Below are positions 9,989 through 30,006 of a stretch of DNA of 41,622 bases, in pieces. The DNA lies in contig WJIS01000276.1 of the NCBI GenBank assembly GCA_014730165.1, positions 1 to 41,622 on the forward strand, written 5' to 3'. The notes under the pieces were generated by a model that had not been told where the DNA came from, did no database searches, and saw only the letters and a program-made list of their open reading frames with translations. How positions within the stretch are numbered: the first letter of the stretch is position 1; each line of letters starts with the position of its first letter. This DNA comes from Promethearchaeota archaeon (GTDB lineage: Archaea; Asgardarchaeota; Lokiarchaeia; Sigyniarchaeales; SOKP01). The translations under genes and the position numbers were made by a program.

Positions 9989-12900
9989 TTATTTTATTCG
10001 CTTTCTATACATCAATATTAGGCCTATCACTGCAACAGATATAATTGGTAATAATAATGGTGGCGGAAAACCAGGTACACCATCTGTTATATCTTGAGAA
10101 GGCTTTTTTATAACCGTATATTCAAATGGTTCTGAATATGAGTTATACCGGGAATTATTATTACCCGTAATATCCCATGCTTGTATATACCAGAGGACCG
10201 TCGTATTAAAGTCTTGATTAGGTATACTACCTTCCCATGTACCAGCTTTTCCAGAGAGTTCCGAGAGATAATCTATCTCCCACGAGCTTCCATTATCAGT
10301 CGAATACCATATTACTGCTTCCGAAATACCACCTTCTTCAAAAATGTCAACACTAACCACAGGAGAATCGTTTGGAGTTGGGGCTATATCATCCCCATCA
10401 CTATCTAGCTCACATTCCGGAAAATCGATTTCAGGGGGCATGTAATCATATGTATTATGTTCTAAGGGTTGACAAGTTTCACAGAAGAATGAAGAGGAAT
10501 TAAATATGTATGTACCAAATCTATGATCTATACCTACACCTTGTACTATAAAATCGGTTGGATCATCATCATATAATTGGTATCCTACACTATGGGTACT
10601 TGAAACTCCTGACTCTACATAATTCTTCATGCTCATCTCTAAAGTAATAGCAGATTCTCCGCCAGGAAACTTTGCTCTAAATTCACTTCCCAATTCAATT
10701 CCTATTGCAATTTTACGCGTCGAGGTTGAGGACACTTCATGTTCAAATTCAAATGGAGCACCACCACTTTGTTGGTCTATTCCTAGCCAAGTTACAGGTA
10801 ATGAATCGTTATAAAAAGCATTCTGCTTCTTCCAATTGTCAGGGGCATGCTCATCACTACAGAAAGTTTCCACATCTCTTAATATTCCGTAAGATAGATG
10901 TGGATCCTCATTTCGAGCAGTTCCATTTGAATATACTCTATATGTCGCATTTAATACCCATTTAAGTATCCAAGATTCACCCCAATATCTATCTCCAAGA
11001 CCTGGTCCGATATAATCAGCATCATCAGTTACTTGACTTGATGTTAAGGAGTTTGTATCAGTAATCTCATATCGAAAATCAAATCCACTTTCCACGGTTT
11101 GTTTGTATTCTAAAAGCATAGAAGCACCCAATTCAACTCCAAATAATGAAAATTCATCTCCAATTTCTAAGCTTACACCGACTGAGCTTGCTAGTTCCAT
11201 CCCTACTCCCATGGATAATTGTGTAGATTGCGTATAGGAAGAGTAGCTATTATCTCCATGAGGATCATGTAAAATCAAATATAATTGTTTTCCCAGAATT
11301 TCTGTGCTTGAGTTTATTATACTCCCCACCTCTAGAAGAACCTTAACAAATGTGAAATGTCTGGTATCTGATGCTACTAACACACTTTTATTATAACCAT
11401 TTAAGGTTGCAGTAATGTAACCATCTAAGTATGATTCTTCAAATATATCTATTGATGTTTTGTTCCAAACGCTTCCATGATTGAAACTGAATGCTCCTTT
11501 TTCTATTATCAACTCAACATCATCTAATTCACCCCAATCATATTCAAAGTGAAATGTTATTGGTTCTCCTTTAGGAAATACAATTGAAGCATTCTCCTCA
11601 GGACTGGTCCATGTCACAAAGGGTTGATCAAAAGCTCTGCCAGAGACTTCCGTTGAGTTATTACCTTCTCCTGATGCTGTAACAGCAGAAACCGTATAGA
11701 AATAATAGGTTCCCACTACTGCGCTTGTGTCATTATACTCTGTAGACACTGATGTATCTAACAAGGATTTAACCCCACCTTGTGAAGTACCTCTATATAT
11801 GTTATAATGCGAGATAGGAACTCCGTATGAGTTAGGAGGATCCCAAGTTAGAAACACGTGTAATATGTTTTGTTCTATATTAAGGTTGGGAGGTGGATCG
11901 GGAGGCGGAATATTAATTCTTACATAATCTACTTTAATATGGTATTGATTGTAAAGTCTGCCATCCCAATAATTATATCTCTCAAGTCTAATTCGTATTT
12001 TCTTTGATTGACTGAAATATTGGTCCGCATCTGTGTTAATATTTTTATAATATATCCCTGCGCTGTCTACGGAAAGCACTTCATCCCAAGTTGAGCTATC
12101 ATAATCGTATATGTGGACATCCGTACCACTCAGTGTTTCAGCAAGATCAATCTCTAACTGAAATTGAGTTATAGTGGTAAATCCAAAGCCTTCATAGTCT
12201 AATTCGTAAAAGAAATCGACATCTGGTTTATGAAAGTCGTACCAAATGTCAACATAATCAACATTAATCCAAGTATGTGTCCATATTTCCTCATTAGCAT
12301 ACATATACACCGCTAAGTATTTGATGTAACCACCTGCTCTCACCCGATCCAGGACCGATCCTGATGTGAGATAAAAAGTACTAATATATTTGTGTCGATG
12401 AACGGGATTTGAAGCTATAGTATGGTATTGCACGTGTCCTAGATCATCATAGACATATAGTCTTAAATTTGTTGAATGATCTAAAACTCCAGCAAAAGAG
12501 TCAGCCCATACTTCATAATCGAACCTAATGCGTTTTACATGTGCATGTGATCCAGTCTGAATATTGGAATAAGCACCCCATTTCATATGAATCCAGCCAG
12601 GATAATCATTACCCCAAGTACTATCGACATAAAGATATTTATTATCATTATCTTTATATGCATTAGTAAAGTACCAGAGTCCTGCATCTGTACTTCCAAA
12701 GGCACCAGTATAGGATACAACCCCATAGTTTGCGACATCTTTTAGTTTTGGATTGCCCCAACCAGGACAAAACATTGTGTCATCAATAATTCCATCATTA
12801 AATAGAATATTATTAGACACAAATGGAGGATCTACTTGTGAACCTATCGATATAGTTTTGGTTGCACCTAAAAAGTCGGGTGTCGAGAGTTTTGTTTGTT

Positions 12901-13045
12901 CTTCATTCTCTAAAGTTTCAGGAGTATTTTCTACGTTGAAATTATCTATATATTTTGGGTTGAATAATATATAACTATTCAAGGTCAATACTAGCACTAT
13001 AATTAATAGTGATTGCTTAATTTTTTTTGTAAATTCTTCTTTCAT
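9989..13045 (-). CDS. Large secreted surface protein with fibronectin type III/Ig-like domains and C-terminal membrane anchor
   Basis: N-terminal hydrophobic signal (KQSLLIIVLVLTLNSYILF); FN3-like PPPNLNIEQNILHVFLTWDPPNSYGVPISHYNIYRGTSQGG..YYFYTVSAVTASGEGNNS; C-terminal DGVPGFPPPLLLPIISVAVIGLILMYRKRIK (proline/PGF motif, TM helix, basic tail). Confidence 0.85.
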   Translation of the reverse strand: MKEEFTKKIKQSLLIIVLVLTLNSYILFNPKYIDNFNVENTPETLENEEQTKLSTPDFLGATKTISIGSQVDPPFVSNNILFNDGIIDDTMFCPGWGNPKLKDVANYGVVSYTGAFGSTDAGLWYFTNAYKDNDNKYLYVDSTWGNDYPGWIHMKWGAYSNIQTGSHAHVKRIRFDYEVWADSFAGVLDHSTNLRLYVYDDLGHVQYHTIASNPVHRHKYISTFYLTSGSVLDRVRAGGYIKYLAVYMYANEEIWTHTWINVDYVDIWYDFHKPDVDFFYELDYEGFGFTTITQFQLEIDLAETLSGTDVHIYDYDSSTWDEVLSVDSAGIYYKNINTDADQYFSQSKKIRIRLERYNYWDGRLYNQYHIKVDYVRINIPPPDPPPNLNIEQNILHVFLTWDPPNSYGVPISHYNIYRGTSQGGVKSLLDTSVSTEYNDTSAVVGTYYFYTVSAVTASGEGNNSTEVSGRAFDQPFVTWTSPEENASIVFPKGEPITFHFEYDWGELDDVELIIEKGAFSFNHGSVWNKTSIDIFEESYLDGYITATLNGYNKSVLVASDTRHFTFVKVLLEVGSIINSSTEILGKQLYLILHDPHGDNSYSSYTQSTQLSMGVGMELASSVGVSLEIGDEFSLFGVELGASMLLEYKQTVESGFDFRYEITDTNSLTSSQVTDDADYIGPGLGDRYWGESWILKWVLNATYRVYSNGTARNEDPHLSYGILRDVETFCSDEHAPDNWKKQNAFYNDSLPVTWLGIDQQSGGAPFEFEHEVSSTSTRKIAIGIELGSEFRAKFPGGESAITLEMSMKNYVESGVSSTHSVGYQLYDDDPTDFIVQGVGIDHRFGTYIFNSSSFFCETCQPLEHNTYDYMPPEIDFPECELDSDGDDIAPTPNDSPVVSVDIFEEGGISEAVIWYSTDNGSSWEIDYLSELSGKAGTWEGSIPNQDFNTTVLWYIQAWDITGNNNSRYNSYSEPFEYTVIKKPSQDITDGVPGFPPPLLLPIISVAVIGLILMYRKRIK

Positions 13046-26555: not shown

Positions 26556-27959
26556 TTATTTTAAAAGATCCGTGAGCTTCTCAATTCTTCTCTTGATTTG
26601 CTCTACTTCTTTTGCCAATTTTTTACTCTGTTTATTATAAGTTCCCTTGTCCATTTTGCCTGCATCGTAATTCTTTTCTACAAAGTCTACTAAGTTTAAT
26701 ACTGATTTAAGTTTACTTTCTAAGCTCTTCACTTCTGCTTGTAGTTCCTCTCGCCTTTCTTGGATGTCTCCCTCGAATTCTTCCTCAATTTCTTCATCTT
26801 TAGACACCTCTTGCTCTAAATCGTCCTCCTCTTCTTCCTCAGATTCTTTCTCTACTATCTCTTCTTTTTCTTCAGATGTTTCTTCCTCATCTTTAACTTC
26901 TTCGATATCTTTAGTTTCTTGTGCTTTTTCAGAAAATAATGCTTCTAATTCTTCTTGATTCTTCTCTAAGTCTTTCTGTTTTGCTTCTGATTTAACATCT
27001 GCTTCTTTTGAGCTAAGATCGATGATATCATCTTCAGACATCGATGTTACATCTATAAGTTTTTCAATAGTTCCTTTCATTGTATTAATTTGACTTAAAA
27101 ATGTTTTAAGCAGATTCATCAATTCACTTTTATTAGAGATTTTCATTAAAATCTCTGTATCATCATATTTAACTTCTGGAGGAACACATTCTTTTAAAGT
27201 TTGCTCAAAGGAGCTCGATTGACCAAGATTATCAGTTTCCTCTGTAGGAGGTTGGTATTTATTGGAAGATCTTAAATCCATTCTATATTCAGAAACTAAC
27301 CATTGAAACATATTTAAAGCAAGATTTTTATGAGTTTCAAATTTTAGTCCTCCTCCAATCCTATCTCTGAACATTTCATAGCTTCCACTACAGCAGACTC
27401 TTCCTTTTTCAGGCTCAGATACACAGATTAATGGAGTTGAAAAGGGATCAGAACTATCATTAGATATAGCGATTGGTATTGCAGCTCCTATTATTGATAC
27501 CGAACATCCCGCACGATAACATAATTTATCGATACCATTTGTAATCGGATGAGGTGGAGTAAAATTGGAAATAATAGGTAAATTTTCAAGCCCAAGATTT
27601 TTAACCTCATCAAGCACTTGATCATTTTCAAAAGTAATTCCAAAAATCTCACTTAAATCACTTAGATTGCTGTTTCGGCCCTTATCTCCACCTGCGTGAG
27701 ATAAAAGGAGCAAACCCCCTCCATCATCCTTGACCCAATTTTCTAATTCTAATATTTCTTGTCGTGAGATTTTAGCAAAATCAGGACATGCAAAAACAAG
27801 AATGTCATAACTCTTTAAAGATTCTTGAGTGATCGAAGTTTCATAATATTCATGACATTGAAAATCATTATTCTCTAAAAGTTCCTTTAGTTCCTTATAA
27901 TTTTCACCTAATCTTCCTCTAGGTTTATGACCAATGTCGAAACCAATATGATAGGACAT
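26556..27959 (-). CDS. GIFT (IFT52-like) domain protein with acidic linker and C-terminal coiled coil
   Basis: N-terminal ~230 aa: YKELKELLENNDFQCHEYYETSITQESLKSYDILVFACPDFAKISRQEILELENWVKDDGGGLLLLSHAGGD..HPITNGIDKLCYRAGCSVS..ICVSEPEKGRVCCSGSYEMFRDRIGG..NLALNMFQWLVSE. Central Glu-rich tract, then a predicted coiled coil SLESKLKSVLNLVDFVEKNYDAGKMDKGTYNKQSKKLAKEVEQIKRRIEKL. Confidence 0.7.
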   Translation of the reverse strand: MSYHIGFDIGHKPRGRLGENYKELKELLENNDFQCHEYYETSITQESLKSYDILVFACPDFAKISRQEILELENWVKDDGGGLLLLSHAGGDKGRNSNLSDLSEIFGITFENDQVLDEVKNLGLENLPIISNFTPPHPITNGIDKLCYRAGCSVSIIGAAIPIAISNDSSDPFSTPLICVSEPEKGRVCCSGSYEMFRDRIGGGLKFETHKNLALNMFQWLVSEYRMDLRSSNKYQPPTEETDNLGQSSSFEQTLKECVPPEVKYDDTEILMKISNKSELMNLLKTFLSQINTMKGTIEKLIDVTSMSEDDIIDLSSKEADVKSEAKQKDLEKNQEELEALFSEKAQETKDIEEVKDEEETSEEKEEIVEKESEEEEEDDLEQEVSKDEEIEEEFEGDIQERREELQAEVKSLESKLKSVLNLVDFVEKNYDAGKMDKGTYNKQSKKLAKEVEQIKRRIEKLTDLLK

Positions 27960-28076: not shown

Positions 28077-29189
28077 TTAATAGACACTTTTGTCACCAAT
28101 TATTAATCTATCCTTTGAGATATTTTCGATATTTACATTACTTCCAATTATAGATTTTTCGGTGATTATATTCTTAAGCTTAGCGTTCTTTTCTATTACA
28201 CTATTTTCAATTATGCACTTTTCTATGTGAGAACCCTTACCTATTGAAACATAAGGTCCGATTACTGAATTTAGTATTCGTGAATTTTTTCCGATATAAG
28301 TAGGATTATTTATCCATGATCTATCGACTTCAATATTATTCTTATGGAAATTATCTTGTTTAGAAAAATTATTTTCCAACAAGAATTTACTTCCCTTTAA
28401 GAGACCTGATGGCTTCCCGAAATCGAGGATTCCTTTTTTTAATTCGACAGCTGCGATTTTGAAACCCTCATTAACTAAATCTTGAAGACTTTCAGTTAAA
28501 TAGACCTCAGATCCGTTTTGTTTAGTATTATTCAGTTTTAAGCTTAAAATATCAAATAATTTCATGGTTGTAGAATGACTAAAAGCATAAATACCAGCAA
28601 TTGCTAAATTTGATATAAATTTCTGGGGTTTCTCTACTAGTTTTTTAATAATGTTATTATCATCTGTTTCAACTATTCCGTATGAACTTGCATCTTCCTC
28701 AGGGACTCGCATAACAGTTATTATCCCATCAACATCAGATTCATAATATCGATACATTAAGTATGAATATTCATCCAATGGTATCATATCACCTAAGAAA
28801 ATCAAGCATCCTTCTCTTTTATTATCCTTAGCGTTTTCAATAGTGACTGATTTAAATCTTTCATTCGTAATATAGACCGCTTCCCCCAAGCCTCTAAAGA
28901 AAGGTACATTATCGGTGAAACCTTGCGGTTTTTGTTCAATAAATGTGAGTTTGAATTTATCTTTATAATTTTTTCTTACATATTCAATGATTTGTCTCTT
29001 CTTATATCCGACGATAAGTATTAATTCAGTTTCGGAGTCAAATGTATTAATAAATTTCTCAAGGATGTGATCTAAAACTGTCCTTCCAGAAATATTAATA
29101 AAAGCTTTTGGTTTGCTTAAGGTAAATGGTCGGAGTCTTGAACCAATTCCAGCAATAGGTCCTATAATTTTCATTGTAGATATAATCAC
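28077..29189 (-). CDS. Sugar nucleotidyltransferase (NTP_transferase) with left-handed beta-helix C-terminus
   Basis: MKIIGPIAGIGSRLRPFTLSKPKAFINISGRTVLDHILEKF, GCLIFLGDMIPLDEY, KLVEKPQKF; C-terminal hexapeptide-like repeats YIGKNSRILNSVIGPYVSIGKGSHIEKCIIENSVI. Confidence 0.9.
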   Translation of the reverse strand: MIISTMKIIGPIAGIGSRLRPFTLSKPKAFINISGRTVLDHILEKFINTFDSETELILIVGYKKRQIIEYVRKNYKDKFKLTFIEQKPQGFTDNVPFFRGLGEAVYITNERFKSVTIENAKDNKREGCLIFLGDMIPLDEYSYLMYRYYESDVDGIITVMRVPEEDASSYGIVETDDNNIIKKLVEKPQKFISNLAIAGIYAFSHSTTMKLFDILSLKLNNTKQNGSEVYLTESLQDLVNEGFKIAAVELKKGILDFGKPSGLLKGSKFLLENNFSKQDNFHKNNIEVDRSWINNPTYIGKNSRILNSVIGPYVSIGKGSHIEKCIIENSVIEKNAKLKNIITEKSIIGSNVNIENISKDRLIIGDKSVY

Positions 29190-29226: not shown

Positions 29227-30006
29227 TTAATAGAATTTTGATTGATCAGAATCGAAGATACGCTGTAAGTATCCGAATAATAAATCCATAGAATGCTCTT
29301 CTTTGGTAGAACATGGTATTAATTCTGCTGTTGAGCCCATTTGAATAAATACATCTGATATTAGCATTGATAATTCTCTAATGAGTCCAGATTCTCTCTC
29401 ATTAGTTGAATCCTCAAGAGCCATAAAATCCTGGCTCCAATTTAAAATCATATCAATTTGATCCTCATCAATTAAATCTGTCTTGGTGAGGATATTAATT
29501 TGAGGGATATTCCTAAATCTAAATTGAACGGAAGCAGCAAGTAGTAATGTAGAGATAAAACCATTCGGTCGAAGCACGAAATTGGAATCAAAAAGAAATG
29601 ATACAGATTTTTGGATATTTCCAAATCCTAATGAACTTGCGATGAGAGGCCCGGTTTCACGGAAAGAAAAAAGTTCAAGCTGTCCCGCTGTGTCAACAAG
29701 AACCCAGTCAGGATTATACTGATCTATTTCATATCGTATTTCATCAATATAATTAACCATTAAATCAGATGATAAAATCATCGCACCGTTTGGACCTATC
29801 TCGTATTTTTGCATAACTTCTTCTAAAACGATAAAATCTCTAATATCAATATCGGGAACATAAGGCATATACTTGACCCCAGGATCAAGATTAATAGTAA
29901 TTACAGAAACTTCTGGATTACGATTTAAAATGTAATCTTTTAAACTTCCCGTAAGTGTTGATTTCCCACTTCCCGCTGTTCCAATAAAATAATTAATTTT
30001 TATCAT
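29227..30006 (-). CDS. GPN-loop GTPase (XAB1/Npa3-like)
   Basis: YFIGTAGSGKSTLTGSL (P-loop), GPNGAMILSSD (GPN loop), DWVLVDTAGQLELFSFRETGPLIA, INILTKTDLID (TKxD). Confidence 0.94.
   Translation of the reverse strand: MIKINYFIGTAGSGKSTLTGSLKDYILNRNPEVSVITINLDPGVKYMPYVPDIDIRDFIVLEEVMQKYEIGPNGAMILSSDLMVNYIDEIRYEIDQYNPDWVLVDTAGQLELFSFRETGPLIASSLGFGNIQKSVSFLFDSNFVLRPNGFISTLLLAASVQFRFRNIPQINILTKTDLIDEDQIDMILNWSQDFMALEDSTNERESGLIRELSMLISDVFIQMGSTAELIPCSTKEEHSMDLLFGYLQRIFDSDQSKFY

Follow-up and report, generated by a model that had tools for sequence, protein, structure and literature searches.

An IFT52-like GIFT domain joined to a steadiness-box-like helical hairpin in a protein widespread among Asgard archaea

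IFT52 is an IFT-B1 core subunit of the transport trains responsible for building cilia. Its C-terminal domain pairs with IFT46, and its central disordered region threads IFT88/IFT70. The GIFT superfamily also includes the N-terminal domain of OST48/Wbp1; OST48 is a luminal, membrane-anchored subunit that serves glycosylation. ESCRT-I is a membrane-remodeling complex whose subunits are clamped together by the steadiness box. Its headpiece consists of homologous hairpins from three subunits (PMC10936438), and Makarova and colleagues regard a further family, Znr_PH_CC_SB (cog.011556), as a likely ESCRT-I component (PMC10936438). For a free-standing steadiness-box protein of Lokiarchaeal and Thorarchaeal origin, two-hybrid signals suggest an interaction with Vps28 (PMC9192718). 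The archaeal protein described here has the general layout of Vps23/TSG101 and Znr_PH_CC_SB, namely, an N-terminal binding domain, a predicted coiled-coil stalk, and a C-terminal hairpin resembling the steadiness box. It differs from both in having a GIFT domain rather than a UEV or PH domain, in lacking zinc ribbons, and in being encoded outside the ESCRT cluster.

The gene lies in a window (the whole stretch of DNA analyzed) of 41,622 nucleotides from a Lokiarchaeia genome of 4.65 Mb in 392 contigs. As the initial annotation had described, it is an intact minus-strand ORF that starts with ATG at 27959, and all of the motifs quoted there were found in the same order (Table 1). The closest relatives outside the genome itself are from Lokiarchaeota MAGs (43 to 60% identity); the best orthologue, from a named Lokiarchaeota MAG, is 60% identical across its full length. 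Together with the Pfam score given below, this argues against a chance finding. Among close orthologues, identity was highest in the GIFT domain (79%), followed by the hairpin (65%) and the linkers (24 to 41%). A Glu-rich tract remarked upon earlier is real and corresponds to the acidic linker, which is poorly conserved. AlphaFold2 modeled both the GIFT domain and the terminal hairpin with high confidence (pLDDT, ~95), whereas the stalk was predicted as a helix, putatively pairing as a coiled coil, with a pLDDT of ~44 to 82.

Table 1. Positions in the window of the gene, its modules, and two neighboring genes
Feature	Position	Strand	Basis
Whole gene, 467 aa, Asgard GIFT-coiled-coil-steadiness-box protein	26556..27959	-	
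IFT52-type GIFT domain, residues 1-230	27270..27959	-	Pfam, profile searches, AlphaFold2, Foldseek
Variable low-confidence linker, residues 231-276	27132..27269	-	AlphaFold2 and orthologue conservation
Predicted long helix/coiled-coil stalk, residues 277-355	26895..27131	-	AlphaFold2
Disordered acidic linker, residues 356-398, 63% Asp+Glu	26766..26894	-	AlphaFold2 and composition
Helical hairpin, ESCRT-I steadiness-box-like, residues 399-467	26559..26765	-	AlphaFold2, profiles, HHalign
Sugar-1-phosphate nucleotidyltransferase, left-handed beta-helix; directly upstream of GIFT gene	28077..29189	-	
GPN-loop GTPase; first gene of Lokiarchaeia three-gene row	29227..30006	-	

The front half of the protein is a GIFT domain homologous to that of IFT52, to which it is also closest in sequence. 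In Pfam searches, residues 17 to 116 and a second stretch matched IFT52_GIFT best (5.4e-12; 45.8 bits, against a cutoff of 27.2), whereas ABC_transp_aux (24.2 bits; cutoff, 34.7) and ThuA (19.6 bits; cutoff, 33.4) fell short, leaving GIFT as the only domain identified by Pfam. All 32 aligned Asgard orthologues matched IFT52_GIFT (best, 1.2e-28), with ABC_transp_aux next at 8.9e-12 and OST48_N, far weaker than IFT52, matched in 10 of the 32. Among solved structures, which set the bounds of this comparison, a GIFT-only profile of 25 Asgard orthologues searched against 177,635 PDB sequences retrieved Chlamydomonas and mouse IFT52 at 5e-27 to 1.3e-23, the next match being at 0.16. Foldseek likewise placed IFT52 structures in the first six positions (3.1e-19 at best; TM score up to 0.92 on the target), confirming the same N-terminal fold as in IFT52 (PDB 5fmr, 5fms, and 8bd7), while the best non-IFT52 match, a GATase1-like cytoplasmic protein (1.9e-8), was ~10 orders of magnitude behind and was followed by glycoside hydrolases. 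A fairer control, though with a small outgroup sample, was an Asgard GIFT HMM built here, on which IFT52 scored 97 and 85 bits. Actinobacterial DUF4350 reached 73 and 49 bits and haloarchaeal DUF4350 reached 43 and 37, with lower scores for GldG (20), ThuA (13), and GATase1_like (12 to 17). These comparators belong to the same Rossmann-like GIFT/GATase superfamily, and no stalk and hairpin were noted in them. Two haloarchaeal PKD proteins reached 89 to 110 bits, but only by summing of several copies, each of which scored ≤37. Loci L155 and L156, on Natronosalvus plasmids, encode haloarchaeal PKD-domain proteins with several GIFT-like repeats.

Since Pfam, the PDB profile, Foldseek, and the HMM scores all favor IFT52, the N terminus is specifically IFT52-like; placement in a generic ThuA/GATase family, named beforehand in the initial annotation as the outcome that would speak against its reading, was not observed. 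In both IFT52 and the target, a GG-rich turn precedes N-(L/I)-N and FG(I/M)...ND.V segments. Eleven residues were invariant across the 25 to 32 Asgard orthologues compared: E68, G80, G91, D92, N98, H137, P172, G186, G192, Y194, and N216. Cys58 was near-invariant, but its catalytic role is unlikely because the Odin-like orthologues and IFT52 have Gly at that position. A ThuA/GATase enzyme reading was accordingly dropped, with both Pfam matches below cutoff and Cys58 not kept. Also dropped was an IFT52 homology extending past the GIFT domain, suggested by a single-sequence alignment, as the orthologues do not conserve the stretch concerned.

Members of the GIFT family were matched in 220 of 228 Asgard genomes, over cutoff in 209 of them, and in none of the 14 named control genomes over cutoff. 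Orthologue-level matches (E ≤ 1e-10), a few of which may be paralogues, were present in 177 of 228 Asgard genomes, including 40 of 45 good ones. Plasmid-borne relatives completed the specificity control; no plasmid homologue of the target itself was found, nor any viral homologue by structure. In the tree, the 30 sampled orthologues formed one clade (92/92) separate from other Asgard GIFT paralogues, four other contigs of the target's own genome carrying paralogues. IFT52 is a cornerstone of IFT-B, and its GIFT domain has a near-universal Asgard relative; by profile score, none of the available bacterial, haloarchaeal, GldG, and ThuA comparators comes as close. A literature search found nothing joining Asgard archaea with IFT52, and an unpublicized asCOG entry may exist; among papers on IFT52 and archaea, judged by title, none dealt with an Asgard IFT52 homologue. 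Pfam-based databases may already label such proteins IFT52_GIFT.

Several other Asgard GIFT proteins were seen along the way. Three from one genus (L104, L107, and L162, from genomes G041, G040, and G039, respectively) represent a second GIFT type, which has a conserved helical C terminus (RILRAFLxNALxEAxxLE) and whose grouping with IFT52 in the tree is weak. A GIFT domain also forms part of large Asgard ORFs at L005 (G000:C130), L106 (G001:C78), L021, L125, and L127. In two of these, L005 and L106, it follows a subtilisin (S8) protease domain; the S8 part of L106 matches human-type site-1 protease, although common subtilisins match better. In L019 (G081:C173), GIFT is fused to a protein-L-isoaspartate methyltransferase-like domain.

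The C-terminal hairpin, confidently predicted at residues 399 to 466, resembles the ESCRT-I steadiness box, as had been guessed from the terminal helices. A profile of 19 hairpins, built with no ESCRT input, was searched against the target's own genome, where the best nonself match (4.7e-4) was to a 730-amino-acid ORF, C7:25663. Pfam names no domain in this ORF, which has helical, PH-like, and Pro/Asn-rich parts followed by the same C-terminal hairpin; by eye, it fits the Znr_PH_CC_SB family. It was also the only match to Vps23_core in the genome at E ≤ 0.01. Among 3,551 ORFs of the collected loci, which were gathered mostly through Pfam ESCRT searches rather than via the hairpin, the top non-GIFT matches were mostly steadiness boxes of PH-CC-SB and UEV-Vps23 proteins, with Vps28 lower. 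HHalign comparisons with Asgard steadiness boxes gave probabilities of 95% for PH-CC-SB (score, 41), 91% for UEV-Vps23 (33), and 88% for Vps28 (31), while control comparisons with nonoverlapping windows of those proteins and with the target's own stalk scored ≤~22, with probabilities of ≤~40%. Among natural PDB families, VPS28 matched best (E = 0.06), which alone is not significant, and helical hairpins invite false similarity. On these sequence comparisons, the hairpin is probably homologous to the steadiness box. It was found in 47 sampled orthologues but had no match in 18 sampled orthologue-level GIFT proteins, including those of f12, f17, the Odin-like f25, and f5 to f7; one of the 18, L013, is cut off by the end of its contig.

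The specific GIFT affinity raises the prospect that the protein is a genuine orthologue of IFT52 and serves an archaeal assembly like IFT-B, and its layout, in which GIFT at the N terminus is followed by a disordered acidic middle and then by C-terminal helices, does recall that of IFT52. The tests, however, do not identify the target as an IFT52: the two have one domain in common, and nothing pointed to an IFT train in archaea. Instead of the IFT46-binding C-terminal domain, the target has the steadiness-box-like hairpin; residues 231 to 276, considered as a possible counterpart of the central disordered region of IFT52, are low in confidence and variable. Itf52_C had no match in the target and exceeded its cutoff in 0 of 147 Asgard genomes, and IFT46 did so in 0 of 119, with two subthreshold matches confined to f18. 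The tree kept IFT52, represented by partial sequences from two species, outside the orthologue clade, where it grouped weakly (82/81) with two f14 sequences, although a tree grouping those partial IFT52 sequences with the orthologues was not rejected (AU P = 0.36). Overall, we consider orthology very improbable. The tree cannot tell which Asgard GIFT paralogue, if any, is sister to IFT52; an f14 paralogue was set aside as a candidate, given weak tree support and an AlphaFold model too poor for use (pLDDT, 52). Of the earlier reading, the IFT52 affinity, the Asgard source, and the steadiness-box likeness stood. Its suggested bearing on the origin of IFT was not supported, given the absence of Itf52_C and IFT46 at curated cutoffs, several GIFT paralogues, and a tree undecided on the sister.

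We favor, at about even confidence, a soluble, cytosolic adaptor composed of the IFT52-like GIFT domain, a helical stalk, and the steadiness box, which would dock on ESCRT-I. In such a protein, GIFT would bind a ligand, cargo, or partner in the place held in Vps23 by the ubiquitin-binding UEV domain, and the steadiness box would dock the protein onto the Vps23/Vps28 headpiece. The predicted helix of the stalk precedes the steadiness box in the AlphaFold2 model, as the stalk of Vps23 does. The protein might thus be an accessory ESCRT-I-type adaptor in Lokiarchaeia, the presumed Thorarchaeia, and several other lineages; in orthologues that lack the hairpin, which weigh against this reading, the coiled coil would serve another scaffold. 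Also against it are the insignificant VPS28 match in the PDB and the absence from the target of any UEV or other ubiquitin-binding domain identifiable by Pfam. If correct, proteins in which GIFT is fused to a steadiness box would make up a new class of ESCRT-I adaptor, and a part of the ciliary machinery with an identifiable archaeal relative may act in ESCRT-type sorting. It is also conceivable, though rather doubtful, that the ancestor of IFT52 was an Asgard GIFT adaptor serving as an ESCRT-I-type subunit, such that the IFT-B core and ESCRT-I would go back to a common archaeal adaptor ancestor.

Gene neighborhood does not help the ESCRT adaptor reading. A GIFT gene was found near vps23, vps28, and vps22 only in genome G076, where the ESCRT-I/II cluster (UEV-Vps23, Vps28, and EAP30/Vps22; L079 12360-15287) and the GIFT orthologue are ~5 kb apart, with the DNA polymerase B gene and two more genes in between. 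Elsewhere, the two were distant or on other contigs, with ~57 to 362 kb between them in the other same-contig cases compared; the proximity in G076 is probably due to chance. Co-occurrence with Vps28 has no power here because both Vps28 and the GIFT orthologue are near universal.

In Lokiarchaeia, the GIFT gene ends a same-strand row behind a GPN GTPase and a nucleotidyltransferase, an order kept in all five of the other Lokiarchaeia loci first examined, and a homologue of the nucleotidyltransferase is encoded close to the GIFT gene in two Odin-like loci and in that of one further order-level relative. Such neighbors might point to a protein that binds sugars or nucleotide sugars and senses or regulates the supply of glycan precursors, the hairpin being a generic oligomerization coiled coil with no ESCRT link. 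Sugar binding has been proposed for GIFT domains (PMC7226087), and both the glycoside hydrolases among the fold neighbors after IFT52 and the weak matches to OST48_N, a glycosylation subunit, are in line with this role. On the other hand, nucleotidyltransferases are common, other lineages have DNA ligase or DNA polymerase B as a neighbor, no conserved catalytic set was identified, and other coiled coils match steadiness boxes far less well than the hairpin does. We regard this explanation as unlikely.

The DNA ligase and polymerase neighbors might instead indicate a generic scaffold with a part in replication or in the cell cycle. The GIFT gene, an ATP-dependent DNA ligase gene, and an unknown 189-amino-acid gene form a one-strand row in two family-level groups (f12 and f17; L091 1341-5067, L093, and L081), and DNA polymerase B is found near the GIFT gene in f28, f20, f19, and f4. 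The polymerase gene, however, is divergent in orientation or parted from GIFT by other genes, the Lokiarchaeia neighbors are quite different, and no DNA-binding domain was seen, making such a scaffold improbable. Elsewhere in the window, the minus strand at 9989-13045 encodes a likely surface protein of 1018 amino acids in which a signal-like N terminus, fibronectin-like stretches, and a C-terminal membrane anchor were recognized by eye.
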